This document shows positions 8,319-38,985 of a stretch of DNA of 38,985 bases, one piece after another. Under the pieces are notes generated by a model that ran no database searches, was not told the DNA's origin, and saw nothing but the letters and a program-made list of their open reading frames with translations. Position 1 is the first letter of the stretch, and each line of letters starts with the position of its first letter. The stretch is from Ralstonia sp. ASV6. GTDB lineage: Bacteria > Pseudomonadota > Gammaproteobacteria > Burkholderiales > Burkholderiaceae. A program made the position numbers and the translations under genes. The DNA is taken from the NCBI RefSeq assembly GCF_016429285.1, contig NZ_JAELUI010000045.1, forward strand, positions 1-38,985, read 5' to 3'.

Positions 8319-8341
8319 GACTATTCCGCATGGGAACACTT
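8295..8341. promoter_or_regulatory. Operator block: TTCCG repeats and a 9-base inverted repeat
   Basis: A perfect inverted repeat, AAGTGTTCC at 8295-8303 and GGAACACTT at 8333-8341, frames three direct TTCCG copies (8300-8304, 8310-8314, 8324-8328). It overlaps the early promoter. In Mu the repressor and Ner bind repeated sites here; which protein binds which repeat cannot be told from sequence. Confidence 0.55.
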
Positions 8342-8459
8342 GGATGATTCGCGCCCTTAGCGCGTAATCCATGTAACCCATTGATTTTATTGATGCGAAA
8401 GCATCTGCCCCTTGGCGCATGAAGTGTGCCTTGACGGGAATACTTTTAGGGGATTGAGT

Positions 8460-9425: not shown

Positions 9426-12400
9426 TCAATCCAGTTTTTGCTCTTGCGCGGTGGCTTGCGGCACCTTGCAGTTGAACGCGGGCGCTGCGTCGGCCAGATC
9501 CAGGTAGCCCATCAGGGTGGGGGCCAGCACCTTGAGTACTTGTACCGTCAGTGCGCTGGTGAACTTGTACTTGGCCGCATCTGCGCCGGCCACGTAGGCG
9601 ACTACGGTGCCAAAGTAGCGATCGCCAAGATAGAAGACGAAGGCGCCTGAGCGGCTGACCACGCGCTCGGAAATCAGCCCGCCGCCGCGGCTGAAGGTCT
9701 TGAAGCGGTTGTCGCCGGTGCCGGTCTTGCCGCCCACGGTGATGGGTTTGCCGTTTGCGTCGACAAAGGTGCCGTCGATGCGCTTGGCGGTGCCGCCTTG
9801 CACCACGCCGGCCAGCGCGGCTTTGACGATGCGTGGAATCTCGGGCGGCAGCACGCGCTCACCGGCGCTTGGGTCGCGGCACAGCAGCACTTCGTACGGG
9901 GTATTGGCGGCAAAGCGCAGGCGGTCGATGCGTACGCTGGGTAGGCGTACGCCGTCGTTTTCGATAATGCCCATCAACTCTGCCAGTGCGGCGGGGCGAT
10001 CTGCCGAGGCACCGATGGCTGTGCCATATGACGGCACCAGCGATTCAAACGGATACCCGAGCCGCTTCCACATCGTGTGGATGGACTGGAACGCCTCGAT
10101 CTCCAGCAACTGCTTGATGCGCTTGTCCTGCGCGCCCTTGCGGTGGGATTGCAGCAGCCACTTGTAGACCGCCTGCCGCTCGGCCGCGCTGTCTTGGTTG
10201 ACCTGCGCCAGCGTCGCCTGCGGATGCTCGCGCAGGTACGCCACCAGCCACAGCTCCAGCGGATGCAGCCGTGCGATGTAGCCGCGGTCCGCCAGGTCGA
10301 AGCGCTGGACCGAATAGTTGTTGTAGAGCTTGGCGAGCGTCACTGCATCCAGCTTGGCGCCCGGCAGATAGGCACGAATGAATGCGGCCAGCTTGTCGGG
10401 CCCGGCTTGCGGGTTGATGCTGCGGAAGATCGTGGCCAGTCGCACTGGGGTCGCATGCGTGCTCTGCACGAGCGTGTCTTCCTGCTCTTCGGCAGTCTTG
10501 CCCCGGTATTTCTTATAGAAGCGACCCATGAACAGCTTGCCTTCGCGGTCGGCAAAGCGCTGCAGGTAGACCTGCCGTTGGGGGGAATCCGTGTCCTCCA
10601 GTGCCTCTGCGCCGGCGCTGGGCAACTGGTGCTGAAAATAGCGCGAGATGTCGCGCATGATCCGCACGAACACGAGGTTGACGGAGTGCTTGAGCCCCTC
10701 GCGCACCGTGAAAAACTGCGTGCCTTCCCATTTCTCGAAATTCTCGAAACTCTGCATGCCGCCGCCGGTGGCAAACCATTCACCGGCGTTGCCGGAGTAT
10801 TTGCGCTCCATCGATGCCTCCAGCATGGCGTTCAGCGAGCGGTCCTGCGCATGGGCGAGGTAATCGACGGCCCATCGCTCGATCGGGTTCTGCGGGGGGA
10901 TATTGAGTTTGCGCAGCATGGCAGGCGTCTGGTCGACATAGCGCTGATGCAGTTCCGCCACGATCTCCAGATAGGTCACCAGCGTGCGCAGCTTGGCGGT
11001 GGAGCCCAGATCCAGCTTCACGCCTTCGTTGATATCGAACGGCTGGTCGAAGGTATCGGCCTGCACCAGCACGCGGTTGCCGCCGGGCGCGCGTTCATAG
11101 AGCGTGAAGCTGTAGGTGACGCCGCGCGGGTCGCCGTGTTCGAGCATCTTGTCGCCGACGAGGCCCGCGGCCTTGGCACGTGCTGGGTCTTGCAGCTTGC
11201 GCAGCTCGGTGGTGATCTCGTGCTGCAGCGGCGCGTCGAGCGTGCTGCTGGCCGTCAGGTCCAGCCGGTCGAGTGCATACATGCGCGGCACCCCCAGCAT
11301 GCCTGCCAGGTTGACGCGCACGGCGTTGGTGCCTTTGTGCTCGATGGGTGCGGCGGGTGGGCGCACGCGCTGGGCCTGCTGCTTGAGCGATTGTGCGAGT
11401 GCTGAATCACGCAGGTCCGCCGGAACGACGCCTGCCGTGGCCAGGATGCGCAGGTAGGCGTTCGTCAGCGATTCGAGCTCGTCAAGATTCTCCTGGTAGT
11501 ACGACGGCCGCCGCTGCGATACCAGCAGGCTCAGGGCCTCCTTGTACGCGAGCGCACGGGCGGCCACCGGCGCAGTCGAGTCTGGCGCCAGCAGTTTGTT
11601 CACCTCCGCAAAGTCGCGCCCGTACCAGACCCACAGTGCATCGCCAATGCCTTGGATTTCACCAAAGCCAGCGCGCGCGCCCAGCGGCACGGTGTTCAAG
11701 TACGTAACGGCGAGTTGGTGACGTGTGGCCGTGGTGTCTTCGCCGTTCAGATAGGCGCGTACCGAGGCGGAGGCCATCTGCCGCAGCTTCTCGCTGGGGG
11801 AATCAGTGCGGCCCTCGGGCGAGTGGCGGTACTTTTCGATTTGCGTGGCGAGCGTGCTGCCGCCAGGGGATTCATGCTCCGAATCGGCCATGCGCACGGC
11901 GCGGTCCCACACGGCGCGCGCCAGGCGGGTCCATTCAACGGCGGGGTTGCGCTTGGGATATTCCGTTTGGAGCAGGGTGCGGTTCTCAATCCCGAGCAGC
12001 GAATTGACCAGCAGCGGCGGAACGGCGTCAAAGCGGTCGTAGATGCGTTCGGGGTGGCGCACGTGGTAGATCGGGCGGCCGTCATCGTCGAGCAGTTCCA
12101 GGCCGGCCTGATCTTTTTCGTGGTAGGGCGCATTCAGGCCGCGCTCCATGAGCGAGAGCATGTCGTTTGACGGCACGGCCTGCTGGGCGACGATATAGCC
12201 GCGCGCGTGCAGGCGATCCAGAAACGTGGAGAGCTGGTGATAACCGAGGCGCTCGTCGTACGGGCCTGAGTTCGGGTAGCGCGCGGAGGCGTTGGGCCCC
12301 GGCTTGACAGGAAAGGTTTGCGACTTGCCGAGACGGGCGAGGTAGCTGGCCTGCCACGCGGAGGTCTTCAGCTCGCTGGAGACAAGCCAAGCAGCCACCG

Positions 12401-12464
12401 CAAGCAGCAGGAGTGGCGCGGCAATCAGGGCCAACAACTTGACGGGGCGGCGTATTCTTTTCAC
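9426..12464 (-). CDS. Penicillin-binding protein with degenerate GT51 and intact transpeptidase domains
   Basis: A 1012-residue inner-membrane protein for peptidoglycan assembly. It has a membrane anchor at about residues 8-30, a GT51-like domain at about 140-270, and a transpeptidase domain with S488-T-A-K, an SVN motif near 593, and K913-T-G-T-G. In the GT51 part, motif one keeps E160 but reads IENRTLL instead of EDRxFxxHxG. GGSTLATQ (201-208) is kept. The motif-three Glu expected in RKxxE appears as Q229 (EKLRQ). Glycosyltransferase activity is therefore doubtful, while the transpeptidase looks active. It is longer than usual class A proteins, with an inserted helical region before KTG. 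It follows the regulator gene by 120 bases. Confidence 0.85.
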   Translation of the reverse strand: MKRIRRPVKLLALIAAPLLLLAVAAWLVSSELKTSAWQASYLARLGKSQTFPVKPGPNASARYPNSGPYDERLGYHQLSTFLDRLHARGYIVAQQAVPSNDMLSLMERGLNAPYHEKDQAGLELLDDDGRPIYHVRHPERIYDRFDAVPPLLVNSLLGIENRTLLQTEYPKRNPAVEWTRLARAVWDRAVRMADSEHESPGGSTLATQIEKYRHSPEGRTDSPSEKLRQMASASVRAYLNGEDTTATRHQLAVTYLNTVPLGARAGFGEIQGIGDALWVWYGRDFAEVNKLLAPDSTAPVAARALAYKEALSLLVSQRRPSYYQENLDELESLTNAYLRILATAGVVPADLRDSALAQSLKQQAQRVRPPAAPIEHKGTNAVRVNLAGMLGVPRMYALDRLDLTASSTLDAPLQHEITTELRKLQDPARAKAAGLVGDKMLEHGDPRGVTYSFTLYERAPGGNRVLVQADTFDQPFDINEGVKLDLGSTAKLRTLVTYLEIVAELHQRYVDQTPAMLRKLNIPPQNPIERWAVDYLAHAQDRSLNAMLEASMERKYSGNAGEWFATGGGMQSFENFEKWEGTQFFTVREGLKHSVNLVFVRIMRDISRYFQHQLPSAGAEALEDTDSPQRQVYLQRFADREGKLFMGRFYKKYRGKTAEEQEDTLVQSTHATPVRLATIFRSINPQAGPDKLAAFIRAYLPGAKLDAVTLAKLYNNYSVQRFDLADRGYIARLHPLELWLVAYLREHPQATLAQVNQDSAAERQAVYKWLLQSHRKGAQDKRIKQLLEIEAFQSIHTMWKRLGYPFESLVPSYGTAIGASADRPAALAELMGIIENDGVRLPSVRIDRLRFAANTPYEVLLCRDPSAGERVLPPEIPRIVKAALAGVVQGGTAKRIDGTFVDANGKPITVGGKTGTGDNRFKTFSRGGGLISERVVSRSGAFVFYLGDRYFGTVVAYVAGADAAKYKFTSALTVQVLKVLAPTLMGYLDLADAAPAFNCKVPQATAQEQKLD

Positions 12465-12584
12465 TCGCTACGCTCCAATCGCAGGCAGACGGGCGCTTCA
12501 CTCCAATCTAGCCCATGCGGCCGTCGTGTCCAGTCCGCCGACGTGCCTGCGCGTGTGTAACTTTGCGCGCCCGTATTGCAAGGC

Positions 12585-13496
12585 TTACGTCGGCCGGTAG
12601 TGCGGAATCTTCTGCTCTTCGTACAGCCGGTAGGTCAGGTTCAGCATGGCCTGGATGTCTTCCGACTCATCCAGCAGACGCGTGCTGAAGATAATGGGCG
12701 AGACCAGCTGCGGGTCGTCCAGTTCCATATAACTGACATCTTCGCGCTGCAAACCGGCCACGCTGCGCGGCACCACCGACACGCCTTCGCCTGCCGCCAC
12801 CAGCCCCAGGGCGATTTGCAACTCTCGTGCCTCGTAAATCCTGGCCGGCTCCAGGGCGCGGTCGTGGAAGAGCGCGAGCACTTGGTCGGCATAGCTCGGG
12901 CGCGGCGCGCGGGGGTAAATGATGAGCGTTTCGCCCACCAGATCGCGCAGAGAGACCGCCGGCTTGGCGTCAAGCAACGCGTGCCCCGAGGGCAGGGCAA
13001 CGATCAGGCGCTCATCGCGCAGCAGGATGCGGCGCACGTTCGGGTCTTCATAACGGATGCGACCGAAGCCCACGTCGATCCGGCCATCCTTGAGTGCCTG
13101 GATCTGGTCCATGGTGGTCATCTCGTGCATGGACAGATCGACCATCGGGTACTCCGCCCGAAAGCGCCGGATGACCTTCGGCAGCATCCCGTACAGGGTT
13201 GAGGCGACGAAGCCGATCGACATGCGGCGCTCGATCTGCCCGACGCGCTGCGTCATCGAGGCCAGCTCGGCTGTCTGCGCCAGTAACTGCCGTGCATGCG
13301 CGTGGAAGAAGCGGCCGGCTTCCGTCAGCTTGAGCGGGCGGCTGCCGCGCTCGAACAGCAGCACGCCGATCTCCTCTTCCAACTGCTGGATCTGGCGGCT
13401 CAGGGGCGGTTGCGCGATATGCAGACGCTCGGCCGCGCGGGTGAAGTTCAGCTCTTCGGCAACGGCGACGAAGTAGCGCAGGTGGCGTAACTCCAT
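12585..13496 (-). CDS. catR: LysR-type regulator of the cat-ben genes (CatR/BenM type)
   Basis: A 303-residue LysR protein. The N-terminal helix-turn-helix (FTRAAERLHIAQPPLSRQIQQLE, residues 18-40) and the inducer domain (SIGFVASTLYGMLP onward) closely match the CatR/BenM/CatM group, which responds to cis,cis-muconate and, in BenM, benzoate. AAGG lies upstream of the ATG at 13496; a longer frame to 13589 runs into the promoter and is rejected. It is divergent from catB across 110 bases, the usual arrangement for activation of catB and autoregulation. Whether it is nearer CatR or BenM cannot be decided here; because ben and cat are in one run, one regulator may serve both. Confidence 0.88.
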   Translation of the reverse strand: MELRHLRYFVAVAEELNFTRAAERLHIAQPPLSRQIQQLEEEIGVLLFERGSRPLKLTEAGRFFHAHARQLLAQTAELASMTQRVGQIERRMSIGFVASTLYGMLPKVIRRFRAEYPMVDLSMHEMTTMDQIQALKDGRIDVGFGRIRYEDPNVRRILLRDERLIVALPSGHALLDAKPAVSLRDLVGETLIIYPRAPRPSYADQVLALFHDRALEPARIYEARELQIALGLVAAGEGVSVVPRSVAGLQREDVSYMELDDPQLVSPIIFSTRLLDESEDIQAMLNLTYRLYEEQKIPHYRPT

Positions 13497-13606
13497 ATCC
13501 AACCTTATAGGTATGAAACTGATACTAAATCGGTGTTGGACGCAATAAATCGCACTGCGTAATCTGGTTTCCAAGTTGATCACCATCACTCTGATACCTG
13601 GAAAAC
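13497..13606. promoter_or_regulatory. Divergent catR-catB control region
   Basis: The 110-base gap contains a dyad GTAT (13511-13514), seven bases, ATAC (13522-13525), which also satisfies the T-N11-A rule for LysR sites. A further ATACC lies at 13593-13597 close to catB. CatR/BenM recognise interrupted dyads of GTAT/ATAC elements, so 13511-13525 is the best primary site. It lies next to the regulator start, consistent with autoregulation. Confidence 0.6.
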
Positions 13607-14716
13607 ATGATTCGCTCGATCGAGGCCATTCTAGTGGATGTGCCCACCATCCGTCCGCACAAGCTCTCTGTCGCCACCATGCACACCCAGACGCTGGTTC
13701 TCGTGCACGTGTGCTGCGAAGACGGCATCGAAGGCTGGGGCGAAGCGACCACCATCGGTGGCCTGAACTACGGCGAAGAGAGTCCCGAGAGCATCAAGGT
13801 CAACATCGACACGCATATCGCTCCGCTGCTGATCGGCATGGATGCGCGCAACGTGGCGGCTGCCATGGCACGCGTGCGCAAGACCATCCAGGGCAACCGC
13901 TTTGCCAAGTGCGCGCTGGAAACGGCGCTGCTCGATGCGCAGGCACGGCGGCTAGGCGTGCCGCTGTCGGAGCTGCTCGGCGGCCGGCTGCGTGATGCGC
14001 TACCGGTGGCCTGGACGCTCGCCAGCGGCGACACGAAGAAGGACATTGCCGAGGCAGAGGCGATGCTGGCCGAGCGCCGCCACCGTATCTTCAAGCTGAA
14101 GATCGGCCTGCGCCCAGTGGCCGACGACGTGGTCCACGTGCTGGCGATCAAGCGCGCACTGGGGGATGCGGTCAGCGTGCGTGTGGACGTCAACCAGGCC
14201 TGGAGCGAACTCGACGCCGCCAACGGCATCGCGGCACTGCAAGCCGGCGGCATCGACCTGATCGAGCAACCCGTGCGCGCCGAGAACCGCGCCGCGCTGG
14301 AACGCCTCGCCCGCCAATTCGCCGTGCCGATGATGGCCGACGAAGCGCTGCACGGTCCGCTGGATGCGTTTGAGCTGGCCCGCAGCGCCAGCGCCGATGT
14401 CTTCGCCGTGAAGATCGCGCAATCCGGCGGCCTTGTGCCGGCCATGCAGGTGGCGGCCATTGCGCAGCTTGCCGGCATCAGCCTGTACGGCGGAACGATG
14501 CTCGAAGGTGCAGTCGGCACGGCGGCATCCGCGCATGTGTTCTCCACCTTTGGCGATCTGCAGTTCGGCACCGAGCTGTTCGGCCCATTGCTGCTCACGC
14601 AAGAACTGCTGACCGAGCCGCTGCGGTACCGCGATTTCATGTTGCAGGTGCCTACCGGCCCCGGCCTGGGCATCCAGATCGACCGCGACAAGCTCGATCG
14701 ACTGCGCCGGCAATAA
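13607..14716 (+). CDS. catB: Muconate cycloisomerase
   Basis: A 369-residue enolase-superfamily enzyme converting cis,cis-muconate to (+)-muconolactone. The capping domain (1-125) is followed by the barrel with family residues in order: KLKIG with the catalytic lysine, metal ligands D (VRVDVNQAW), E (DLIEQPV) and D (MADEAL), and the second catalytic lysine in VFAVKIAQSGG. IGGLNYGEES near residue 50 is the 20s/50s loop typical of muconate cycloisomerases. Length matches the family (about 370). First gene of the catBCA-benABCD run, 110 bases from the regulator. It may be a chloromuconate-type enzyme, but the benzoate context favours CatB. Confidence 0.93.
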   Translation: MIRSIEAILVDVPTIRPHKLSVATMHTQTLVLVHVCCEDGIEGWGEATTIGGLNYGEESPESIKVNIDTHIAPLLIGMDARNVAAAMARVRKTIQGNRFAKCALETALLDAQARRLGVPLSELLGGRLRDALPVAWTLASGDTKKDIAEAEAMLAERRHRIFKLKIGLRPVADDVVHVLAIKRALGDAVSVRVDVNQAWSELDAANGIAALQAGGIDLIEQPVRAENRAALERLARQFAVPMMADEALHGPLDAFELARSASADVFAVKIAQSGGLVPAMQVAAIAQLAGISLYGGTMLEGAVGTAASAHVFSTFGDLQFGTELFGPLLLTQELLTEPLRYRDFMLQVPTGPGLGIQIDRDKLDRLRRQ

Positions 14717-14761
14717 GAACAAGAACAACCCCAACCAAGACAACCCACCAAGGAGACCACG

Positions 14762-15052
14762 ATGCTGTTCCACGTCCGCATGGATGTTCACCTGCCGGCC
14801 GACATGCCCGCCGATGTCGCCAACGAGATCAAGGCGCGCGAGAAGGCCTACTCGCAGGAGCTGCAGCGCAGCGGCAAGTGGCGCCACATCTGGCGTCTGG
14901 TTGGCGAGTACGCGAACGTCAGCATCTTCGACGTGCAGAGCAATGCCGAGCTGCACGACATCCTGGCGGCGTTGCCGCTGTTTTCGTTCATGCAGATTGC
15001 CGTGACGCCGCTGTGCCGTCACCCGTCGTCGATTCACAGCGATGACGCCTGA
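14762..15052 (+). CDS. catC: Muconolactone delta-isomerase
   Basis: A 96-residue cytoplasmic enzyme that isomerises muconolactone to beta-ketoadipate enol-lactone. The whole chain matches the family: MLFHVRMDVHLP start, E (ANEIKAREKA), KWRHIWRLVGEYANVSIFDV in the middle, and LPLFSFMQIAVTPLCRHPSS at the end. Length equals the usual 92-96. AAGGAGA lies upstream of the ATG. It follows catB by 45 bases and precedes catA by 54. Confidence 0.95.
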   Translation: MLFHVRMDVHLPADMPADVANEIKAREKAYSQELQRSGKWRHIWRLVGEYANVSIFDVQSNAELHDILAALPLFSFMQIAVTPLCRHPSSIHSDDA

Positions 15053-15106
15053 AGCTGAAAGATCGCTCGGACATTTCCCCAATAGAACCCAGTGGAGACA
15101 CCCCTC

Positions 15107-16042
15107 ATGAACGCGCACGTATTCCAAACGAAAGAAGTGCAGGACCTGTTGAAGGCCGCCACCAACCTGGATGGCAAGGAGGGCAATGCCCGCCTGAAGC
15201 AGATCACCCACCGTCTGCTGGCCGATCTGTTCAAGGCCATCGACGATCTGGATATCACACCGGATGAAGTCTGGGCGGGCATCAACTACCTGAACAAGCT
15301 TGGCCAGGACGGCGAGGCTGCACTGCTCGCTGCCGGTGTGGGCCTGGAGAAGTACCTCGACATCCGCATGGACGCTGCGGACGCGGCGCTTGGCCTCAAC
15401 GGTGGCACGCCGCGCACGATCGAAGGCCCCCTGTACGTTGCAGGCGCAACGGTGCGCGATGGTGTATCCCGCATCGACATCGATCCGGACCCGGCTGCAG
15501 GCCCGCTGATCATTCACGGTACGGTGGCTGGCCCGGACGGCAAGCCTCTGGCCGGTGCGCTGGTCGAGTGCTGGCATGCGAACTCGAACGGCTTCTACTC
15601 GCACTTTGATCCAACCGGTGAGCAGAGCGCGTTCAACCTGCGTGGCGCAGTCCGGACCGGCGCCGATGGCAAGTATGAATTCCGCACGCTCATGCCGGTG
15701 GGTTACGGTTGCCCGCCGCAGGGTGCGACCCAGCAACTGCTGAACGGGCTTGCCCGCCATGGCAATCGTCCGGCGCACGTGCATTTCTTCGTCTCCAGCG
15801 ACGGCCACCGCAAGCTGACGACGCAATTCAACATCGAAGGCGATCCGCTGATCTGGGACGACTTCGCCTACGCCACTCGCGAAGAGCTGATTCCGCCCGT
15901 GGTTGAAAAAACCGGCGGCGCCGCACTCGATCTGAAGACCGATGCGTACAAGGACATCGAGTTCAACGTCGTCCTGACGCCGCTGGTGCAGGGCAAGGAC
16001 AACCAGCGCGTGAACCGCCTGCGTGCTTCGGCCGAGGCCTGA
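15107..16042 (+). CDS. catA: Catechol 1,2-dioxygenase
   Basis: A 311-residue intradiol dioxygenase that opens catechol between the hydroxyls to cis,cis-muconate using Fe(III). The N-terminal helical dimer domain (1-100) is followed by the catalytic domain, with iron ligands in GPLYVAGA (Tyr), MPVGYGCPP (Tyr) and RPAHVHFF (two His). Length agrees with the family. I chose ATG 15107 with GGAGA upstream; an upstream GTG would add METPL and is less likely. It lies after catC and before benA, so the enzyme making catechol-cleavage product is encoded together with the enzymes making catechol. Confidence 0.94.
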
Positions 16043-16070
16043 GACCCGACGCCTCAACGTGGAGAAGACC

Positions 16071-17429
16071 ATGTCCGCCTTGATCGACAAAGCCAACGAA
16101 CTGGATCACCTGCTGTCAACCGCGGTGGTGGATGACGAGGCGGCGGGTATTTTCCGCTGCCGTCGAGACATCTTCACCAACCCGGACCTGTTCGAACTGG
16201 AGATGAAGCACATCTTCGAGAACAACTGGGTGTATCTGGCGCACGAGAGCCAGATTCCGAACAACAACGATTACTACACCACGTGGATCGGTCGCCAGCC
16301 GATCGTCATCACCCGCGACAAGACCGGGGGGTTGAACGCGGTCATCAACGCCTGCGCGCACAAGGGAGCAATGCTTTGCCGCCGCAAGCATGGCAACAAG
16401 GGCAGCTTCACGTGCCCGTTCCATGGCTGGACGTTCTCCAACACCGGCAAGCTGCTCAAGGTGAAGGACGAAAAGACCACCGAGTACCCGGTCCAGTTCA
16501 ACACGCATGGCTCGCATGACCTGAAAAAGGTCGCGCGCTTCCAGAACTACCGCGGCTTCCTGTTCGGCAGCCTCAACGCCGACGTGCTGCCGCTCGAGGA
16601 TTACCTTGGCGAAGCGCGCGTGATCATCGACCAGATTGTCGATCAGGCGCCAAACGGGCTCGAAGTGCTGCGCGGCAACTCCTCCTACATCTACGAAGGC
16701 AACTGGAAGATGCAGATGGAGAACGGCTGCGACGGCTACCACGTCAGCACCGTGCACTGGAACTACGCCGCGACGATGGGCCGACGCAAGGAAGGCGGCA
16801 CCCAGGCTGTGGATGCGAACAGCTGGAGCAAGTCGGTAGCGGGCGTCTACGGCTTCGAGAACGGCCACATCCTCTTGTGGACGCAGACGATGAACCCGGA
16901 AGTGCGGCCGGTCTATGCGCACCGTGAGGAAATCCAGGCACGCGTGGGCGAAACCCAGACGGACTTCATCGTCAATCAGACCCGCAACCTGTGCCTGTAT
17001 CCGAACGTGTTCCTGATGGACCAGTTCAGCACGCAGATTCGCGTGGTACGGCCGATCAGCGTCGACAAGACAGAAGTCTCAATCTTCTGCTTCGCGCCAA
17101 AGGGCGAGAGCGCCACCGATCGTGCAACGCGCATCCGCCAGTACGAGGATTTCTTCAACGTCACCGGCATGGGTACCGCAGACGACCTGGAGGAATTCCG
17201 CGCCTGTCAGAACGGCTATGCCGGCACGACCGCCCTGTGGAACGACCTGTCGCGCGGCGCGCCGCTGTGGGTGCGCGGCCCGGACGAGAACGCTACGAAG
17301 ATGGGCTTGAAGCCGCTCATCTCGGGCGAGCGCAGTGAAGACGAAGGCTTGTTCGTCTGCCAGCACGAATACTGGGTGCAGGTTATGCGCGACGCATTGC
17401 AGAAGGAAGGTGAAGAGGTGCCGGCATGA
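16071..17429 (+). CDS. benA: Benzoate 1,2-dioxygenase, large (alpha) subunit
   Basis: A 452-residue ring-hydroxylating oxygenase alpha subunit. It holds a Rieske cluster with C95-x-H97 and C115-x-x-H118 (CAHKGAMLC, then CPFHGW), and a mononuclear iron site around H224 and H229 ([13 protein letters not shown]) with a distal acid ligand near the C terminus. Sequence and length match BenA, which with BenB and the BenC reductase makes the cis-diol of benzoate. The start at 16071 has GGAGAAG upstream. The end overlaps benB by four bases (ATGA), giving coupled subunit synthesis. The related XylX or AntA are possible but the neighbours fit ben. Confidence 0.94.
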
Positions 17430-17914
17430 ACACCGATTACCAGAACATCTGCGCGGCGCTTTACCGCGAGGCGCGCTTGCTCGACGACCGCCAGTGGGAT
17501 GCATGGTTGGCGTGCTACGCAGAAGACGTCACGTACTGGATGCCGGCATGGGATGACGACGATCAATTGACCGACGATCCGCAGAGCCAGATCTCGTTGA
17601 TGTACTACCCCGATCGCTGTGGGCTGGAAGATCGCGTCTTCCGCATCAAGACCGAGCGCAGTGGTGCTTCAACGCCGGAGCCGAGAACCAGCCACAGCAT
17701 CACCAACGTGGAAGTCATGACCGAGCGCGACGATGCCGTTGACGTGCGCTACAACTTCCACACGCTGTGCCACCGCTACAAGGCCACCGACCACTTCTTC
17801 GGCACGATGTTCGTCACCTTGCGCAAGTCCGGTGATGGCTTCCTGATCGCATCCAAAAAGATCGTCCTGAAGAACGACTACATCCGGCAGGTGCTCGACG
17901 TCTATCACGTTTGA
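17426..17914 (+). CDS. benB: Benzoate 1,2-dioxygenase, small (beta) subunit
   Basis: A 162-residue beta subunit of the cystatin/NTF2-like fold that supports the alpha trimer. Family features are [20 protein letters not shown] near the N terminus, [11 protein letters not shown] in the middle and an [11 protein letters not shown] strand. It is the usual length. Its ATG overlaps the benA stop by four bases and it precedes benC by 48 bases. Confidence 0.94.
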
Positions 17915-17962
17915 CCTCTGGTCCGGGCACAGCGCACGCACAAGAGGCAGTGGAGGTATCCC

Positions 17963-18991
17963 ATGTCCAGTTTCACAGTTGCACTGAATTTCGAGGACGG
18001 CGTCACGCGGTTCATCGATTGCAAAGCGGGGGAGAAGGTGCTCGATGCCGCCTTCCGCGCCAAGATCAACCTGCCGATGGATTGCTCCGATGGCGTGTGC
18101 GGAACCTGCAAGTGCCGCGCAGAGAGCGGCAGCTACGACCTCGGTGACGACTACATCGAGGACGCACTGACCGAAGACGAGAAAAACACCGGCCTCGTGC
18201 TGACGTGCCAGATGGTGCCGCAAAGCGATTGCGTGATCGCGGTGCCAACCACGTCGACCACGTGCAAGACCGGGCAGAGCAGCTTTGGCGCAACCCTGTC
18301 CAAAGTCGAGCTGCACAACGATGCCGCCGTCGTGCTCGAACTGGATGTGGATGCCACGGCGCCGGTGTTCCTGCCTGGCCAGTACGTCAACATCGGGGTG
18401 CCTGGGAGCGGCCAACACCGCTCGTATTCGTTCTCATCGGCGCCCGGCGAAGCGAAGGTCAGTTTCCTGATCAAGAAGATTCCCGGCGGCGTGATGAGCA
18501 ACTGGCTGGAAGCCGCGCAGCCGGGCGACAAGCTCGATCTGCAAGGCCCGCTGGGCAGCTTCTATCTGCGCGACGTACAGCGGCCGCTGTTGTTCCTGGC
18601 CGGCGGCACGGGTCTCGCGCCGTTCCTGTCGATGCTCGAGGTGCTGGCGCGCAGCCATGCGCAGCAGCAGGTGCATCTGATTTATGGCGTGACCCGTGAC
18701 CTCGATCTGGTGCAGGTCGACGCGATCGAGGCCTATGCGGCGCGGCTGCCGAACTTCAGCTACGCCACCGTCGTGGCCGACGCCGCTTCGAGCCATCCGC
18801 GCAAGGGTTGGGTGACGCAGCACATTCCAGCCAACGCGCTGAACGATGGCGACGTGGATGTCTATCTCTGCGGACCGCCGCCGATGGTGGATGCCGTGCG
18901 CACCTACTTTGACGACGCAGGCGTGAAGCCCAACAGCTTTCACTACGAGAAGTTCACGCCCAACGCCACACCGAATGCAAAGGCGGCATGA
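17963..18991 (+). CDS. benC: Benzoate 1,2-dioxygenase electron transfer reductase
   Basis: A 342-residue one-component reductase that passes electrons from NADH to the oxygenase. The N-terminal plant-type [2Fe-2S] ferredoxin domain has C41, C46, C49 and C82 (CSDGVCGTC, then LTCQ). The FAD domain carries HRSYSFSSAP (RxYS motif), and the NAD domain has LAGGTGLAPFLSML and the terminal CGPPPMV. GGAGG lies upstream of the ATG. The stop overlaps benD by four bases. Confidence 0.95.
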   Translation: MSSFTVALNFEDGVTRFIDCKAGEKVLDAAFRAKINLPMDCSDGVCGTCKCRAESGSYDLGDDYIEDALTEDEKNTGLVLTCQMVPQSDCVIAVPTTSTTCKTGQSSFGATLSKVELHNDAAVVLELDVDATAPVFLPGQYVNIGVPGSGQHRSYSFSSAPGEAKVSFLIKKIPGGVMSNWLEAAQPGDKLDLQGPLGSFYLRDVQRPLLFLAGGTGLAPFLSMLEVLARSHAQQQVHLIYGVTRDLDLVQVDAIEAYAARLPNFSYATVVADAASSHPRKGWVTQHIPANALNDGDVDVYLCGPPPMVDAVRTYFDDAGVKPNSFHYEKFTPNATPNAKAA

Positions 18992-19770
18992 GCATGCAAC
19001 GATTCTCAGACAGGGCCGTGATCGTGACCGGCGCGGCGCAAGGCATCGGGCGCGGCGTTGCGATGGCCGCAGCGGAAGAGGGTGCCCAGGTGCTGCTGGT
19101 GGACCGCGCGGAGCTGGTCTACGAAGTGCAGGCGGAAATTGCCGCAGCCGGCGGCCAGGCCCACGCCACCACCGCGGATCTGGAAACCTATGCAGGTGCC
19201 CAGCATGCCGTGCAGACCGCACTCGACACCTTCAGCCGCATCGACGTGCTCATCAACAACGTCGGTGGCACGATCTGGGCAAAGCCGTACCAGCACTATG
19301 AAGAGGCGCAGATCGAAGCGGAGATTCGCCGCTCGCTGTTTCCAACACTGTGGTGCTGTCGCGCCGTGCTGCCGCACATGGTGGAGCGCAAGCAGGGCGT
19401 GATCGTGAACGTGTCATCCATCGCCACGCGCGGCATCTACAGGATTCCGTATTCGGCAGCCAAGGGTGGCGTGAACGCGCTCACGGCCAGCTTGGCGCTT
19501 GAGCATGCGGACGACAACATCCGCGTGAACGCCGTTGCCACCGGCGGTACGGAAGCGCCGCCGCGCAAGATCCCGCGCAATACGGCGCCCCTGTCGGAGC
19601 AGGAAACCACTTGGTACCAGGGGATCGTCGACCAAACCATTGCCAGCAGCCTGATGCACCGCTACGGCACGATCGACGAGCAGGTGCGGGCGATTCTATT
19701 TCTGGCTTCGGACGAGGCCTCGTACATCACCGGGACGGTGCTGCCGGTTGGCGGTGGAGACTTGGGCTAG
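18988..19770 (+). CDS. benD: Benzoate cis-diol dehydrogenase (SDR)
   Basis: A 260-residue short-chain dehydrogenase that oxidises and decarboxylates the benzoate cis-diol to catechol. It shows the cofactor motif TGAAQGIGRG (residues 15-24), NNVGG, catalytic S (NVSSIA), and Y-x-x-x-K (YSAAKGG). The C-terminal GTVLPVGGGDLG segment is typical. The ATG overlaps the benC stop by four bases. This is the last gene of the run; no benK, benE or other transporter follows. Confidence 0.93.
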   Translation: MSMQRFSDRAVIVTGAAQGIGRGVAMAAAEEGAQVLLVDRAELVYEVQAEIAAAGGQAHATTADLETYAGAQHAVQTALDTFSRIDVLINNVGGTIWAKPYQHYEEAQIEAEIRRSLFPTLWCCRAVLPHMVERKQGVIVNVSSIATRGIYRIPYSAAKGGVNALTASLALEHADDNIRVNAVATGGTEAPPRKIPRNTAPLSEQETTWYQGIVDQTIASSLMHRYGTIDEQVRAILFLASDEASYITGTVLPVGGGDLG

Positions 19771-19890: not shown

Positions 19891-20392
19891 GACGGGGAAC
19901 CGAACGGCTAAGGGGGGCAGCAGTTCGATTCGTTCAGGTTAAGCATTGCGATTGTTAGGAAAGCAAGGCTTTGTCAAATGCCGGCGCCTATCCGCTGAAG
20001 ACCTGCAATGTCCTATCACGCCCTATCCCAATGTCGAAAGCCTTGCCAAGGTCGTGATATCCACGGTCGATTCATATTGTGATTTTTCTTTCATTCACAG
20101 CGGTACCTATGGTTCGGTAGAGCCACCGCCTGCCATTCGTCTCGTTTCTCATGAGGCCAGACCTCAAAGCGCCTTCGCGAAAGTGACTGAATGAGCATTT
20201 GCGTAAAGAGCCATCGACGAAACGCTTGTGCTGCCACCCGATTGAAACGGTCGCCTGACCATAGGTGGAACGGGCTCGAAGCGATCTTGCAATTGTTTAA
20301 AATTCCTCGCGAGGCACGTGCTATTTCTAACCTTGTCATGCCGCTTCAGCGGGGAATTTTCCCAGACGAGAAAGCGGCTGACTGGTGTCGTA

Positions 20393-20408
20393 GATAATAT
20401 CGATTATC
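20393..20408. promoter_or_regulatory. AT-rich inverted repeat upstream of the response regulator
   Basis: GATAAT and ATTATC surround ATCG, 41 bases before the ATG at 20449, in an AT-rich stretch. It is well placed for promoter or operator function. ATAACGATATC a little downstream (20419-20429) partly repeats the same bases. Confidence 0.35.
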
Positions 20409-20448
20409 AAAAATAAATAACGATATCTAAGTCAACGGGGAAGTGGCA

Positions 20449-21129
20449 ATGCGGATCGCTGTATTGGAAGACGATCCTGGATTTCTTTCACTGATGGAAT
20501 CAGTGATTGACCGTCTAGGACATATCCTTGTCTCATTCTCAGACGGCATGCAGATATTCAAGAATCTGCAGCGCGAGTCTTATGATCTCTTGATTCTCGA
20601 TTGGCATGTTCCAAGAATGTCAGGGATGGAGATACTGCTCTGGCTGAGACAAAAAAAGGAAGACCGAACGCCCGTCGCCTTTGTAACAAGCGCGGCGTTC
20701 GAGTCGGAAATCGTAGCAGCCCTGCGCCAGGGCGCAGATGACTACATCATCAAGCCGGTCAGCGCCGCGGTGCTGGAGGCTCGCATCGAAGCCATTCTGA
20801 GAAGGTCATACCGCGAAGAGGCGCAGAGTACGCTTGAGCTGGGGGCATTCAAGTTCGATAGTGCGCGTCGTGTTGCCTTTCTGGATGGTCGGGAAATCAA
20901 GCTCACAAGCAAGGAGTACGAGCTTGCCTACAAGCTTTTCTCGCGCAAGGGCAAGCTTCTGACGCGAGACTATCTTGTGAGCGCAATCTGGGGCGAGTCC
21001 TATGCGGGGGAGTCCCGTACGCTGGACACCCACATCTCGCAGATCCGGCTGAAGCTTGGGCTGAATCCAGGAAACGGCGTGAAGCTGATCTCGGTGTATG
21101 GTGCCGGGTACCGACTGGAGAGCGCATGA
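20449..21129 (+). CDS. Orphan OmpR/PhoB-type response regulator
   Basis: A 226-residue two-domain regulator. The receiver domain has the acidic pair at residues 8-9, phosphoacceptor D51 (LILDWHVP), T80 and K102 (IIKP). The C-terminal winged helix (from about 130) has the LTSKEYELAYKLFSRKG and RTLDTHISQIRLKL signatures. The ATG at 20449 follows GGGGAAGTG (20437-20445). No sensor kinase is nearby, so its partner is elsewhere or absent. The stop overlaps the next gene by four bases (ATGA). GC is low: 54 of 120 bases at 20461-20580 by hand count, against 41 of 60 in benC at 18481-18540, suggesting acquisition. A role in controlling the downstream adhesin is inference. Confidence 0.88.
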   Translation: MRIAVLEDDPGFLSLMESVIDRLGHILVSFSDGMQIFKNLQRESYDLLILDWHVPRMSGMEILLWLRQKKEDRTPVAFVTSAAFESEIVAALRQGADDYIIKPVSAAVLEARIEAILRRSYREEAQSTLELGAFKFDSARRVAFLDGREIKLTSKEYELAYKLFSRKGKLLTRDYLVSAIWGESYAGESRTLDTHISQIRLKLGLNPGNGVKLISVYGAGYRLESA

Positions 21130-21653
21130 CGCATGATGTGCAAGCTTTTCGGAGCGGTCTTCTTGCTGTGGCCATGCTCATGTCGACGACCGTCCAGGCA
21201 CAGGTACAGGCAACGCCCGGAACATCCGCCGATGAAATCCTGCAACTGGCGGATCGTGTTGTCGCCCAGCTGGAGACGGGGCAATACGGTGCCGTCTGGG
21301 AGGGGGCCGCCCCATTGGTTCGAGCGGCAGTTAGCAAAGAGGCGTTTGCCCGGCAGATGCAAGCCACCCACCGGAGCGGCGGCATACAGGATTATGGCTG
21401 GGCATCCATCGTTCGTATCGAATATAAGAATGATCGAGATATTCCGGATGGCCTCTATGCCAATGTCGATTACGCAGCGCACCTGAAAATGGGTGGCATT
21501 ACATATAAATTGCTAAGCTTTCGAGTGGAGTCGGATGAGCGCTGGCATTTTGTCGGCGACTCCGACCGGAGGGGTTCAAACGAAATCCCTACGCGACCAG
21601 CAATATTCTCGTTATCGCCACGTTCCTCCAGCGGCCACACTTCAGCACCTTGA
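21126..21653 (+). CDS. Secreted DUF4019-like protein
   Basis: A 175-residue exported protein coupled to the response regulator by a four-base overlap. A signal peptide is visible (LLAVAMLMSTTVQAQ, cleavage after about residue 25). The core at about 38-145 resembles DUF4019: a helix with ETGQYGAVWEGAAPLVRAAVSKEAFARQM, then strands ending ERWHFVGDS. The family function is unknown; it has a small NTF2-like shape. The last 30 residues are Ser- and Pro-rich and look disordered. Probably periplasmic or surface associated, and possibly a partner or sensor for the neighbouring regulator. Confidence 0.7.
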   Translation: MTHDVQAFRSGLLAVAMLMSTTVQAQVQATPGTSADEILQLADRVVAQLETGQYGAVWEGAAPLVRAAVSKEAFARQMQATHRSGGIQDYGWASIVRIEYKNDRDIPDGLYANVDYAAHLKMGGITYKLLSFRVESDERWHFVGDSDRRGSNEIPTRPAIFSLSPRSSSGHTSAP

Positions 21654-21791
21654 GGCGATTTCTGCGGCCAACATGCCAAGGATAGCCACCGTGCCGCTTT
21701 GTACCTCATTCCTCAACGCATCCTCTTTCGGGTCGCTGAATCCGCCTGTCGATTATTCAATTTTTCTACATTTTTGATTTGAGAAAACTGT

Positions 21792-21806
21792 AGAGTGAGT
21801 CACTCT
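21792..21806. promoter_or_regulatory. 15-base palindrome before the adhesin promoter
   Basis: AGAGTGA and TCACTCT flank a single G, nine bases upstream of a perfect TTGACA. The position is right for an activator or repressor site. The neighbouring response regulator is an obvious candidate, although OmpR-type sites are usually direct repeats. Confidence 0.45.
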
Positions 21807-21814
21807 GCTAAGAT

Positions 21815-21844
21815 TTGACATTGCATTACAGTTGCTTGTAGATG
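21815..21844 (+). promoter_or_regulatory. Possible adhesin promoter
   Basis: TTGACA at 21815-21820 is a perfect -35 box. The best -10 candidate, TAGATG at 21839-21844 with an 18-base spacer, is poor. Transcription would give a leader of about 170 bases containing the GGCA tract. Confidence 0.35.
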
Positions 21845-21933
21845 TTTTGCATTGAGCGAACTTCCCCTTATTACATTTGTTTCAAGAATGCGAGCGCCAT
21901 CGACTCCAGCTTAATCGGAGGCGCGTCACGTGC

Positions 21934-21953
21934 GGCAGGCAGGCAGGCAGGCA
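21934..21953. repeat. Tetranucleotide repeat (GGCA)5
   Basis: Five perfect tandem GGCA units lie 71-91 bases before the adhesin start. Simple repeats in the promoter or leader of trimeric autotransporters (such as nadA and uspA2) cause phase variation, so this tract is a possible switch. Five copies is short. Confidence 0.8.
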
Positions 21954-22024
21954 TTCAATAAATAAAGCAGAAAGGCGAATTGTTTGGCGTCGCTTCTGAG
22001 TAATGCGTTTTTTGGGGAAGTGAA

Positions 22025-25000
22025 TTGAACCTGATCTACAAAACCAAATACAGCAACGTTAGACACCTGACGATTGTGGTGGCTGAGACATGCCGCGGCG
22101 GAGGCAAGACCGGCAAGACCGGCACGACACGGGGCAAGACCGTTGGTGCACATGTCTTGAAAGCAGGTGGGGTTCGGCACAGGAAGTCCGTCGTCGTGTT
22201 GGCGTTGGCGGCTCTGCTCAGCGGTACCGCCCATGCGCAATACACGAATGGCACGTTTGGCTCGGCGACGGGCACAGCAGTGGCAATCGGCAGCGGTGCC
22301 GGTGGGAATGCCGCAAGCGCATCGGGTGCGGCTTCTGTTGCAATCGGCAGCGGCGCGACCGCTACGGGCGGCTCAACGAGTGCTGGCGCCATCGCCATCG
22401 GTAGTGCAAAGGCTGGTACGTCGGGCATTGCCTATCAGAACGGTGCCATCGCCATCGGCCAAGGCGCCCAAGCGTTGAGCAGTAACCCCACTGGCGGCAC
22501 ATCGCCGATTGCCATCGGCGCGACCTCCAATGCGAACGGCACGGGTTCTCAGGTCGCCATTGGTGACCAAGCGGTGGCAACGGGCGTGGATGCGATCGGG
22601 ATCGGCGGTCATGCGAACGCCGCTGGCGTCAAGGCAACCGGCAACGAGTCCACCGCAATCGGCCAGTCTTCTGCCGCCACAAATACAGGTTCTGTTGCGC
22701 TGGGCTACTCCGCTACTTCGTCCGGTGTCGGCTCGGTGGCGTTGGGCGGCAACGGCACGGTTGGCTCCAGTGCGGCGGGCGATGCGTCGTTTGCCGTGGG
22801 TGGTGGCGCTTCGGCCGCGACGGCGGGGGCAATTGCACTGGGTTCCGCTGGCGCGGGAGGGGTCGCTGCGGGTGGCGCTGGCGCGCAGGCGAAATCGGGT
22901 GTGGGCGTGATCGCGATCGGTGCTGGCGGCACAGGTGGTTCGGCCGCGGGCGCAACCGGAGGTGCAGGTGCCACGGCAACTGGCTCGGGCGCGATTGCGC
23001 TGGGTGATGGCGGTGCGGGGGGCTCTGCAGCGGCAGGCTCGGGTGGCGCAGGCGCCGTGGCCAGCGGCACAAGCGCTATCGCTATTGGCTCGGGTACGGC
23101 GGGGTCCACGACTGCGGGCTTGGCCGGGGCGTCGGCCACGGGCAGCAGTGCAATTGCCATTGGAGCTGGCTCTTCGAGTGCGGGGGCCGGTGCATCGGCG
23201 ATCGGCACATCCGCATCCGCCGTCGGGGGGAACAGTCTTGCTCTTGGCAACGGCGCGGTCGCCAACTTTACGAAGGATGTGGCACTGGGCTCGGGTTCCA
23301 CCACGGCGGCCGCCGTAAGTACCCCAAGCGTGACCGTGGCAGGCGTGACCTATGCCGTCGCAGGCACGGGCCCGACCAGCACGGTCAGCGTCGGCGCATC
23401 CGGCGCGGAGCGCACCATCACCAATGTGGCAGCGGGACGTGTCAGTGCAACCAGCACGGACGCAGTGAACGGCTCGGAACTGTATGCCACCAATCAGGCC
23501 GTCGGCGCAGTCAATACGGTTGCCAACATGGGGTGGAACCTAACCACGGCGCAAACCGGTACGGGCACGGCCACAGGCACCTCCGTGACCAATGTGTCCC
23601 CCGGTGGCACTGCGACGTTCACCGCAGGCAACAACATTGCCATCGCACAAAACGGTTCCAACATTGAACTGGCAACCAGCATGACGCCGACGTTCACGAG
23701 CGTGACGACTGGCAACAGCATGCTGAACACCAATGGCCTGACGATCACGGGCGGACCGAGCGTGACGAGTACGGGCATCAATGGCGGCGGTCTGGCGGTG
23801 ACCAACATCGCGCCGGGCGTGAACGGCACCGATGCGGTTGACGTGAACCAGCTCAATGCCGCCGTGCAGGCAGCCTCAGGTGCTGGTTGGAAGGTCAGCG
23901 CGCAGGGTGCGAACGCTACCGCCGTCTCATCGGCGAGTCCGACGGGGGCAATCGTTGACCTGAACAACACAGATGGCAACGTCGTGGTGAGCAAGTCATC
24001 GACGAGCAACAACGTCACCTTCAACCTGGCCAACAACGTCAACGTGGCAGGCAGCGTGACGGTGGGGCCGGCAGCCAGCGGCACGAGCATCACCTCGACA
24101 GGAGTGACCACCAATGGTGGTAGCGGTCCAAGCCTGACCATTACGGGCATCAATGCAGCCAACACTGTCATCACCAACGTGGCAAAAGGGCAGGTTTCTG
24201 CTACCAGCACGGATGCCGTCAACGGCTCGCAGCTCTACGCGACCAACCAGACGATCAACAATCTTGTCAGTTCCGTGGCAAATGGCGGAGTGGGGCCGGT
24301 GCAATACAGCAATCCGTCTTCGCCCACGACACCCAATGGAGGTACGCCGTCGCAAGACCTGACACTGGTGGGCGCCGCAACCGGGCCGGTGACATTGCAC
24401 AACCTGGCCCCCGGCGTAGCGCAGACGGATGCAGTGAACGTCGGGCAACTCGGCAGCGCTGTGGCTGGTCTGGGCGGCGGGGCATCCATCAACCCGTCGA
24501 CCGGAGCGGTCACTGGGCCAACCTACACCGTCAGTAACGCCAACGGTACAACGTCCACCGTCAATAACGTGGGTGCGGCGCTGGACGCAATCAACAGCAC
24601 GGGCATCAAGTACTTCCATGCCAACAGCACGGCTCCGGACAGCCAGGCATTGGGCATAGATAGCGTGGCAATCGGTCCGAATGCCATCTCCAACTATGCC
24701 GGTGACATTGCACTGGGCGCTGGCAGCGTGACCGCTGCCACGGTTGCTACGCCCTCTGCCACGATCAACGGAACGCTCTACACGTTTGCCGGTGGTGCCC
24801 CGACCAGCACAGTCAGCGTAGGCGTGCCGGGTGCTGAGCGCACCATCACCAATGTGGCAGCGGGGCGGATCAACTCAAGCAGCACGGATGCAATCAACGG
24901 CTCGCAATTGAGCGCCGCCGATCAGGCCATTACAGCGCTGAGCGACAAGGTCAACAGCCTCGGCTCGACGGTGGCAAACAACCTTGGGGGCGGTTCGAGC

Positions 25001-25684
25001 TACAACACGTCGACCGGCGCGGTGACTTCGCCAACGTACGGCAACGCAGGTAACGGCAGCGGCGGGTTGGGTAACAACGTCGGTGGGGGGGCGGGGCCAG
25101 CGGCCAATGTGTCGTCAGGCCTGCTGGCTGCGGCCAATACCTGGATCACCGGCAATCCGACCACCTATACGGCCCCCCTGGCCACCGGAGCAAATAGCAC
25201 TGCTGCTGGCAGCGGTGCCGTCAGCACGGGCAACAACTCTGTTGCGTTGGGCAGCAACTCCAGCGATAGCGGGCGGGCAAACGTCGTGAGTGTGGGGGCA
25301 GCCGGAGCCGAGCGGCAGATCACCAATGTTGCTGCCGGCACGCAGGGTACGGATGCAGTCAACCTGAGCCAGCTCAACTCCGCGATCGGCCAGTCGAATG
25401 CCAACGTGACGCAGCAACTCAATGGCTTGCAGCAGAACGTCAACAACGTGGCACGTAACGCCTATGCCGGGGTTGCGGCGGCAACCGCGCTGACGATGAT
25501 CCCCGACGTCGACAAGGACAAAACGCTCTCGCTCGGCATCGGCTCGGGCTTCTACCACGGCTATCAGGCCGTGGCCGTGGGTGGCACTGCCCGTGTGACC
25601 GAGAACATCAAGGTTCGGGCCGGAGTCAGCACGAGCCCCGGCAATGGCACGACATTCGGCATGGGCGCATCAATGCAGTGGTAA
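22025..25684 (+). CDS. YadA-like trimeric autotransporter adhesin
   Basis: A 1219-residue surface adhesin. It opens with an extended signal peptide region (LNLIYKTKYSNVRHLTIVVAE, then basic Gly/Lys-rich residues) and a hydrophobic core ending AHA at residue 71. A long head of YadA-type repeats follows (AIAIG, SVALG patterns, about 85-420). Neck/stalk modules read TSTVSVG..GAERTITNVAAG (near 460, 936 and 1094) and VNGSQLYATNQ. The membrane anchor is residues 1144-1219, ending MGASMQW. The start is TTG at 22025, supported by GGGGAAGTG upstream and by the extended-signal motif. The usual terminal residue is aromatic, and W satisfies this. It probably mediates attachment or autoaggregation. Confidence 0.93.
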   Translation: MNLIYKTKYSNVRHLTIVVAETCRGGGKTGKTGTTRGKTVGAHVLKAGGVRHRKSVVVLALAALLSGTAHAQYTNGTFGSATGTAVAIGSGAGGNAASASGAASVAIGSGATATGGSTSAGAIAIGSAKAGTSGIAYQNGAIAIGQGAQALSSNPTGGTSPIAIGATSNANGTGSQVAIGDQAVATGVDAIGIGGHANAAGVKATGNESTAIGQSSAATNTGSVALGYSATSSGVGSVALGGNGTVGSSAAGDASFAVGGGASAATAGAIALGSAGAGGVAAGGAGAQAKSGVGVIAIGAGGTGGSAAGATGGAGATATGSGAIALGDGGAGGSAAAGSGGAGAVASGTSAIAIGSGTAGSTTAGLAGASATGSSAIAIGAGSSSAGAGASAIGTSASAVGGNSLALGNGAVANFTKDVALGSGSTTAAAVSTPSVTVAGVTYAVAGTGPTSTVSVGASGAERTITNVAAGRVSATSTDAVNGSELYATNQAVGAVNTVANMGWNLTTAQTGTGTATGTSVTNVSPGGTATFTAGNNIAIAQNGSNIELATSMTPTFTSVTTGNSMLNTNGLTITGGPSVTSTGINGGGLAVTNIAPGVNGTDAVDVNQLNAAVQAASGAGWKVSAQGANATAVSSASPTGAIVDLNNTDGNVVVSKSSTSNNVTFNLANNVNVAGSVTVGPAASGTSITSTGVTTNGGSGPSLTITGINAANTVITNVAKGQVSATSTDAVNGSQLYATNQTINNLVSSVANGGVGPVQYSNPSSPTTPNGGTPSQDLTLVGAATGPVTLHNLAPGVAQTDAVNVGQLGSAVAGLGGGASINPSTGAVTGPTYTVSNANGTTSTVNNVGAALDAINSTGIKYFHANSTAPDSQALGIDSVAIGPNAISNYAGDIALGAGSVTAATVATPSATINGTLYTFAGGAPTSTVSVGVPGAERTITNVAAGRINSSSTDAINGSQLSAADQAITALSDKVNSLGSTVANNLGGGSSYNTSTGAVTSPTYGNAGNGSGGLGNNVGGGAGPAANVSSGLLAAANTWITGNPTTYTAPLATGANSTAAGSGAVSTGNNSVALGSNSSDSGRANVVSVGAAGAERQITNVAAGTQGTDAVNLSQLNSAIGQSNANVTQQLNGLQQNVNNVARNAYAGVAAATALTMIPDVDKDKTLSLGIGSGFYHGYQAVAVGGTARVTENIKVRAGVSTSPGNGTTFGMGASMQW
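23408..23436 (+). repeat. 29-base direct repeat within the adhesin, copy 1
   Basis: These bases are identical to 24836-24864. They encode the start of the neck module (ERTITNVAAG). Surrounding bases are also similar over roughly 100 bases, so recombination could delete about 1.4 kb in frame (1428 bases, divisible by three). Confidence 0.85.
24836..24864 (+). repeat. 29-base direct repeat within the adhesin, copy 2
   Basis: Second identical copy of 23408-23436. The distance between copies is a multiple of three, so unequal crossing-over would keep the reading frame and the anchor. Confidence 0.85.
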
Positions 25685-37990: not shown

Positions 37991-38020
37991 TTATTTAACA
38001 TAATGCAAAGCGTTGGCCCG
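37991..38020. other. dif-like site (one good Xer arm)
   Basis: ATTTAACATAA at 37993-38003 is the exact reverse complement of the XerD arm of E. coli dif (TTATGTTAAAT). A six-base spacer, TGCAAA, follows. The next eleven bases (38010-38020) do not resemble a XerC arm, so this may be a hybrid attachment junction or a chance match. The repressor stop codon lies inside the arm. Confidence 0.5.
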
Positions 38021-38381
38021 CTGCAATGGCGTGGCTAAAGGCTTGCAGGGTAGTTGGTGTCACAAAATTTGTGACACCTGCGGTCGCCAGCACGAGGATG
38101 GTCGCTGCGCTATGCGCCATCCTCGGTGAAAAAACTTCCCACAGCGACCGCTGGCCAGCTCGTTCTGCGCGGTCGGCGTCTGCTGCCATGATGATTGGCA
38201 GCGGGTTCTCCATGCTTAGCTCCAGGGCAACGCGCATGCACTGCTCGTTGTCCATGATTCGCAGGCCTTTCCGGTAGTTGTTGACGGCACTATGAGACCA
38301 GCCCATGTGTTCGCATAGTGCTTTGTCTGTTTTCAGGCCGTGGCGCTCCATCACGGCGTCCAGGTATTTCACGCTTTTCAT
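37995..38381 (-). CDS. Inovirus-type helix-turn-helix repressor (DUF3693-like)
   Basis: A 128-residue protein. Residues 4-45 form a helix-turn-helix unit (YLDAVMERHGLKTDKALCEHMGWSHSAVNNYRKG), followed by an acidic segment with PLPIIMAADADRAERAGQRSLWEVF. This is the DUF3693-like arrangement seen in regulators of filamentous phages. The tail (about 88-115) is hydrophobic and may reach a membrane. The ATG at 38381 has AGAGGGG eight bases upstream; a GTG at 38390 is possible. The stop sits in the dif-like arm. It should bind the repeated sites upstream and hold the divergent phage promoter. Confidence 0.75.
   Translation of the reverse strand: MKSVKYLDAVMERHGLKTDKALCEHMGWSHSAVNNYRKGLRIMDNEQCMRVALELSMENPLPIIMAADADRAERAGQRSLWEVFSPRMAHSAATILVLATAGVTNFVTPTTLQAFSHAIAAGQRFALC
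38056..38078. repeat. 23-base palindrome within the repressor gene
   Basis: GGTGTCACAAA and TTTGTGACACC are perfect eleven-base arms around one A, inside the 3' part of the repressor reading frame. It is far longer than expected by chance and is not needed by the protein sequence. Confidence 0.85.
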
Positions 38382-38398
38382 AGTCGGCACCCCTCTTG

Positions 38399-38512: not shown

Positions 38513-38890
38513 ATGGCTATTCGCATGGTGTCGATGTTGCCTCGGGACGGTAAGTCTCTGAAGGCGCTTTCGGCTGGTGTTTCTTCCGATCCCACCCCCT
38601 TTCTTGACCGCGAGCTCGCAGCTCGTGATTCCCATGGCGTGATTAAGCCGCTCTGGTTGCGTCAGTTGTTGGGACGCAAAGCTGCAGAGCACCGTGCGCG
38701 TCTGGCTGAGCAGGCTTACCGCGAAGCGTCCGGTGGTCGTGTGTCTTCACCCCGCCGTTCCCTTTCCCTTGACGAGGTCAATGCAGCACTTTCTGACGCT
38801 GCCGACGACTCGTTTTTGGCCTCGCGCAGTGAGGCTGCTTTTTGTCAGGCGGGCGTGGTAGCACCGCCTGACAGTCTCACGGATGAGACT
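38513..38890 (+). CDS. Truncated phage gene, first 126 residues
   Basis: The first 126 residues of an unrecognised protein, cut by the adapter. AGGGGG lies before the ATG. The visible part is charged and helical (LWLRQLLGRKAAEHRARLAEQAYREA) with a Ser-rich stretch. The apparent ending LSLIHI and stop are adapter sequence, not the natural end. Position as the first gene under the operator block suggests an early function such as replication; that is inference. Confidence 0.65.
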
Positions 38891-38985
38891 CTGTCTCTTA
38901 TACACATCTGACGCTGCCGACGAAGGCCGTGGAGTGTAGGTCTCGGTGGTGGCGGGGTGGGTGAAGAGGGGGGGGGGGGGGGGGG
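38891..38985 (+). other. Illumina Nextera adapter, index and poly-G tail (artefact)
   Basis: Bases 38891-38909 are the 19-base Tn5 mosaic end CTGTCTCTTATACACATCT. Bases 38910-38923 are the rest of the Nextera read-1 adapter (GACGCTGCCGACGA). Ten bases (38924-38933) look like an index. GTGTAGGTCTCGGTGGT is a slightly corrupted P5 flank, and the end is a run of G typical of two-colour sequencing when signal is lost. None of this belongs to the organism. Confidence 0.97.

Follow-up and report, generated by a model that had tools for sequence, protein, structure and literature searches.

When a Nextera/Tn5 read runs through into its own adapter, the mosaic end, the read-1 adapter, the sample index and the P5 sequence follow one another in that order, and the read-1 adapter string has been printed, with an 8-nt index, as a trimming parameter (PMC5170597). 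G is the unlabelled base on two-channel instruments, of which the NextSeq 2000 is one (PMC11140927), so that errors toward G and a terminal run of G are expected from a read that continues past the end of its molecule. The window analyzed here, which is the whole of contig C419 (38,985 nucleotides) in an assembly of 5,897,561 bases and 718 contigs, ends in 95 bases in which the same elements occur in the same order. This tail differs from the string given in PMC5170597 in that its index has 10 nt rather than 8 nt, in that it finishes in poly-G, and in that it lies inside an assembled contig.

For the DNA in front of these bases, the closest described systems are the filamentous Inoviridae found at dif, of the CTXphi type; a filamentous phage has been described as both integrating and excising at this site (PMC5666396). 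The prophage of Cupriavidus taiwanensis STM 6018 (PMC10011098) has a replication protein, a single-strand binding protein (SSB) and a Zot-like pI, as does contig C480 of the present assembly, and the prophage ends identified here likewise lie at dif or dif-like sites. The present genome differs from that account in having two related prophages, which would lie on two replicons.

The adapter tail of the contig

We regard it as virtually certain that bases 38891 to 38985 are Nextera/Tn5 adapter read-through followed by no-signal G and are not bacterial or phage DNA. The tail is made up of the following parts.

38891 to 38909, + strand: Tn5 mosaic end (Nextera transposase end, read-through orientation), 19 of 19 bases matching
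38910 to 38923, + strand: remainder of the Nextera read-1 (i5-side) adapter, 14 of 14 bases matching; the same 33-nt string is found in PMC5170597
38924 to 38933, + strand: i5 sample index of 10 nt, as read AGGCCGTGGA, between adapter and P5
38934 to 38962, + strand: P5 flow-cell sequence, reverse complement, degraded, 21 of 29 bases matching
38963 to 38985, + strand: a 5-base remainder (38963 to 38967), then the terminal G run of no-signal calls (18 G at 38968 to 38985)

The oligonucleotide strings used for comparison are also found in PMC5170597. The mosaic end begins directly after genomic sequence, at 38891, and mosaic end and read-1 adapter together agree with the Nextera read-through sequence at 33 of 33 bases (38891 to 38923). 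A read-1 adapter in such an orientation is reached by a read from the opposite end, i.e., by Read 2. In the P5 part, the first 6 bases are exact and the contig has G at all eight of the mismatched positions. The sequence-only reading had described a mosaic end, a read-1 adapter, a 10-base index, a degraded P5 sequence and a G run in immediate succession and had proposed aligning the contig end to Nextera adapters; both the succession and the alignment held. The 10-nt index was taken from the tail itself and is thus by itself no test of the adapter reading. The index pair of this sample would be TCCACGGCCT for i5 (or its reverse complement, depending on the instrument) and ATGGCGCCTG for i7, and no paper containing both was present among the 20 best-ranked of the 85 that contain at least one of them.

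When the mosaic-end 19-mer was searched for across the assembly with up to 2 mismatches, three matches were obtained (none with the backwards control), and all three adjoin an index and poly-G at a contig end. The two further contigs, one showing the i7 side of the library and the other the i5 side, carry their tails near their first bases.

C105, 1 to 184: adapter tail, i7 side, with a 34-nt adapter exact, an index, 22 of 24 bases of P7 and 111 G
C282, 1 to 167: adapter tail, i5 side, with a 33-nt adapter exact, an index and 113 G

The G runs of both tails end in the same orientation as that of C419. The i5 indices of C282 and C419 agree at the first 7 of 10 bases, the last three being AAA in C282 and GGA in C419. 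Next to the tails, the genomic sequence of C105 is, for exactly 97 bases, the reverse complement of that of C282, which marks the two tails as the two ends of one short library insert; an 87% block of 167 bases is also common to the two contigs beside their tails. Insert and tail on C105 amount to 281 bases, so that reads would have been at least 281 bases long if a single read produced this tail. The adapter tail is therefore an ordinary library artefact and not a real feature of the genome, and the last 95 bases of C419, like the tails of C105 and C282, are unfit for annotation or use.

The truncated phage gene

The open reading frame at 38513 to 38911 runs from phage sequence into the adapter, which supplies its final six codons and its TGA.

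38513 to 38890, + strand: genuine phage part (126 codons) of a phrog_20884 gene of unknown function, cut by the adapter (PHROGs E value, 5.7e-41)
38891 to 38911, + strand: artefactual gene end of six codons (LSLIHI) and a stop, derived from the adapter

The match to phrog_20884 stops at profile position 122 of 130, and the false end contributes nothing to the matched stretch. We compared the gene with ten relative loci, namely, C213 of the same genome, OL791267 and PP701473, one locus of Cupriavidus neocaledonicus and six IMG/VR contigs. In all ten, the stop comes 8 codons past the residue aligned to residue 126 (for IMG/VR contig L048, the stop was counted from residue 121, giving 13 codons), and LSLIHI occurs in none of them. 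These comparisons represent at most eight independent loci, since OL791267 and PP701473 are one phage and an exact 500-mer is common to the Cupriavidus locus and IMG/VR contig L049, which are probably one phage as well. The claim, made earlier from the letters alone, that the adapter had given this gene a false C terminus is thus confirmed, and the C terminus of the gene as it stands in this contig should not be trusted.

Adapter sequence has also entered public records, where it lies beneath phage-protein annotations, such as that of a portal protein in OY978796. Among 50,697 phage records, 42 matched the C419 tail, as did 9 of the 72,556 plasmid records (E ≤ 1e-5), with at least 80% of the tail covered in 6 of the 42 phage records and in none of the nine plasmid records; by tallies, the matching phage and plasmid records are mostly from Escherichia, Salmonella, Listeria, Klebsiella and the like. 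An exact search of viral_contigs with the first 49 tail bases, index included, gave no matches. In OY978796.1, MK170160.1, MK373775.1 and LR595870.1, the annotated features that overlie the adapter match are called portal protein, tail fiber protein, long tail fiber or terminase.

The dif-integrated prophage and its relative

Judged from its sequence, the DNA just before the tail is the left end of an Inoviridae prophage integrated at dif. Three features of the window mark this end and the approach to the adapter tail.

37993 to 38009, + strand: left part of the chromosomal dif site and junction of chromosome and prophage, the same 17 bases with which dif begins in four of four relatives read
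37995 to 38390, − strand: prophage regulator gene (phrog_638 transcriptional regulator; E value, 8.8e-35)
38816 to 38890, + strand: stretch of 75 bases that the second prophage (C213) has unchanged, at the end of which contig C419 stops

Beyond 38009, the four relatives read all carry the other dif arm, and the sequence of the window diverges from them. The dif site of Ralstonia solanacearum ends in this same arm, in reverse complement (PMC2731167). A search of 60 other genomes for the region found matches in 26, including 12 of the 15 genomes from the genus, and in none did the match extend past 38009. Hits to Cupriavidus and Burkholderia suggest that the host belongs to the Burkholderiaceae. 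The regulator and the phrog_20884 gene are the only genes of the window's own prophage that lie inside the window. The right flank of the window's dif is found on C115 from base 402, where the sequence matches the right flank of dif in the relative G006. C115 also carries, at 329, a dif-like sequence whose left arm has a single difference and whose right arm has further ones, and bases 36 to 348 of this contig resemble the end of the second prophage at 82%. The start of C115 is overlapped by C168, which encodes a protein linked to the Zot-like pI by tblastn (25% identity).

The second prophage runs from C213 to C480, where the inovirus replication protein, SSB and Zot-like pI genes are located, and ends at another dif-like site. 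Two blocks of the prophages align with each other, one at 71% identity and the other at 98%. The DNA beyond the right end of the second prophage was present in all 16 of the genus genomes searched (own genome included). In G006, this right-flank DNA lies on C2 (1.98 Mb), 35 bases from a dif-like site, and the first dif lies on C1 (3.76 Mb). Synteny in this relative therefore suggests that the two prophages of the window's genome reside on two replicons, at their dif sites. The biological point is a modest one, namely, that C419 shows the left end of a filamentous prophage that reads as integrated at dif, and that the genome contains a relative of it elsewhere.

One of the related phage records merits separate mention. 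OL791267.1, named “Lentisphaerae phage WC36-1,” has 85% DNA identity to the second prophage over 1.6 kb. Its 16-kb version (1 to 9350 and 9352 to 16080) has a dif-like site at 9357, after ~9.3 kb of DNA with a G+C content of 63 to 71%, and 1.6 kb of this ~9.3-kb part is 68% like contig C53. Bases 2000 to 9300 gave partial matches in 103 plasmid records, among which the best was from Burkholderia (72% over 18%) and Klebsiella was the most frequent. The same inovirus is described in PMC11361711 as occurring in two Lentisphaerae strains, outside the host chromosomes; from the sequence comparisons, a proteobacterial source of this phage seems worth checking.

Why the contig stops at 38890

Neighboring contigs overlap by exactly 127 bases at the joins C53/C213, C213/C480 and C168/C115, which looks like the work of a k=127 assembly graph breaking at repeats. 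C419 has no 127-base overlap with either C213 or C480; before its tail, it has 75 bases in common with C213, and the last 34 of these are also common to C480. Both C213 and C480 continue past the homologue of 38890 with phage sequence. The break in C419 is probably linked to the repeat that the related second prophage creates. The sequence-only reading had placed the break inside the phage and had suggested that the phage might be multicopy or circular. The location stands, and the multicopy suggestion has partial support, in that the prophage has a related second copy with 75 identical bases; the copies differ elsewhere (71% and 98% identity), and a high copy number found no support.

We propose that a Tn5 (Nextera-type) library molecule was shorter than the read length, so that the read would have run past the insert into the molecule's own adapter, index and P5 end before continuing into no-signal cycles, which a two-channel Illumina instrument would call as G. 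A k-mer assembler may have kept this untrimmed read as the end of C419. Because the two prophages become identical here, there would have been no unambiguous genomic path onward, and the contig would for that reason have ended in the adapter read. We infer that the tail came from one or a few reads, that the reads were untrimmed and that the repeat was the reason for the stop.

Searches of the assembly contigs did not recover the part of the window's prophage that should lie between 38890 and C168. A replication-protein search for the middle of the prophage matched only C480 and a short piece of C213, and the window prophage's own replication gene was absent from the matches. C480 DNA as a query matched only C213 and the window, and the Zot-like protein as a query matched only C480, the distant C168 relative (25% by tblastn) not being among the matches. 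The first bases of C168 shared no prefix of 15 bases or more with the examined parts of C480, C213, C53 and C115, and the longest prefix common to the C168 start and the window was 9 bases. Since the middle of the prophage was not recovered, a simple lack of coverage may have contributed to the stop.

Another feature close to the tail bears on the alternatives.

38792 to 38808, + strand: exact copy, in phage sequence, of 17 nt of the read-1 adapter (adapter bases 17 to 33)

This copy ends 82 bases before the real adapter tail. Against the two adapters, 60 Markov copies of the window gave longest matches of 9 to 14 nt, and the reversed window gave one of 11 nt, so that the exact 17-nt identity exceeds both controls. 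The copy could have cost honest reads, through trimming or through internal priming by the i5 PCR primer, and so stopped the contig and left an adapter-bearing read at its end. The second prophage keeps just the first 14 of the 17 bases, and its contig, C213, continues through that place, as this account would have it. If the account were true, genomes with chance adapter copies would break reproducibly at fixed places. A causal link between copy and break is possible, but we think it improbable. C419 itself passes through the 17-mer, and all 33 nt of the adapter are still present at this contig end, which implies that the read in question was not effectively trimmed; moreover, the first 1,500 genomic bases beside each of the C105 and C282 tails contain no adapter match longer than 8 nt, and such a copy is therefore not needed for a tail to form.

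Slightly less probable still is a stop caused by circular or high-copy-number replication of the phage. The replicative form of the Inoviridae is circular, and the relatives of this prophage are Inoviridae, for which the described integration and excision at dif (PMC5666396) would also be in keeping with such an origin. At three of the four prophage ends found (those on C419, C115 and C480), however, the phage sequence adjoins, at a dif or dif-like site, DNA that relatives have in the chromosome. The suggestion that the tail is genuine DNA of the strain, e.g., a laboratory Tn5 insertion or the end of a cloned vector, concerns the origin of the tail itself and draws on the fact that laboratory transposons also use the Tn5 mosaic end. 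Here, however, the mosaic end is followed by the read-1 adapter, an index, P5 and poly-G, an i5-side or i7-side structure recurs on two other contig ends, and the tail is missing from C213, from C480 and from the other relative loci that were compared. On the anatomy of the tail and on the sister contigs, we reject this origin and assign it a negligible probability.

The rest of the window contains several features at a distance from the prophage. A Mu-type transposase (Mu-transpos_C, rve) at 4562 to 6709 may belong to a Mu-like element in the left part of the window. An ordinary-looking aromatic-degradation cluster at 13607 to 19770 includes a muconate-lactonizing type enzyme, a catechol dioxygenase, a Rieske dioxygenase, a reductase and a dehydrogenase. 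A trimeric autotransporter adhesin with YadA stalk, head and anchor lies at 22025 to 25684, and the DNA just before it, at 20001 to 22000, has a low G+C content (51 to 54%).
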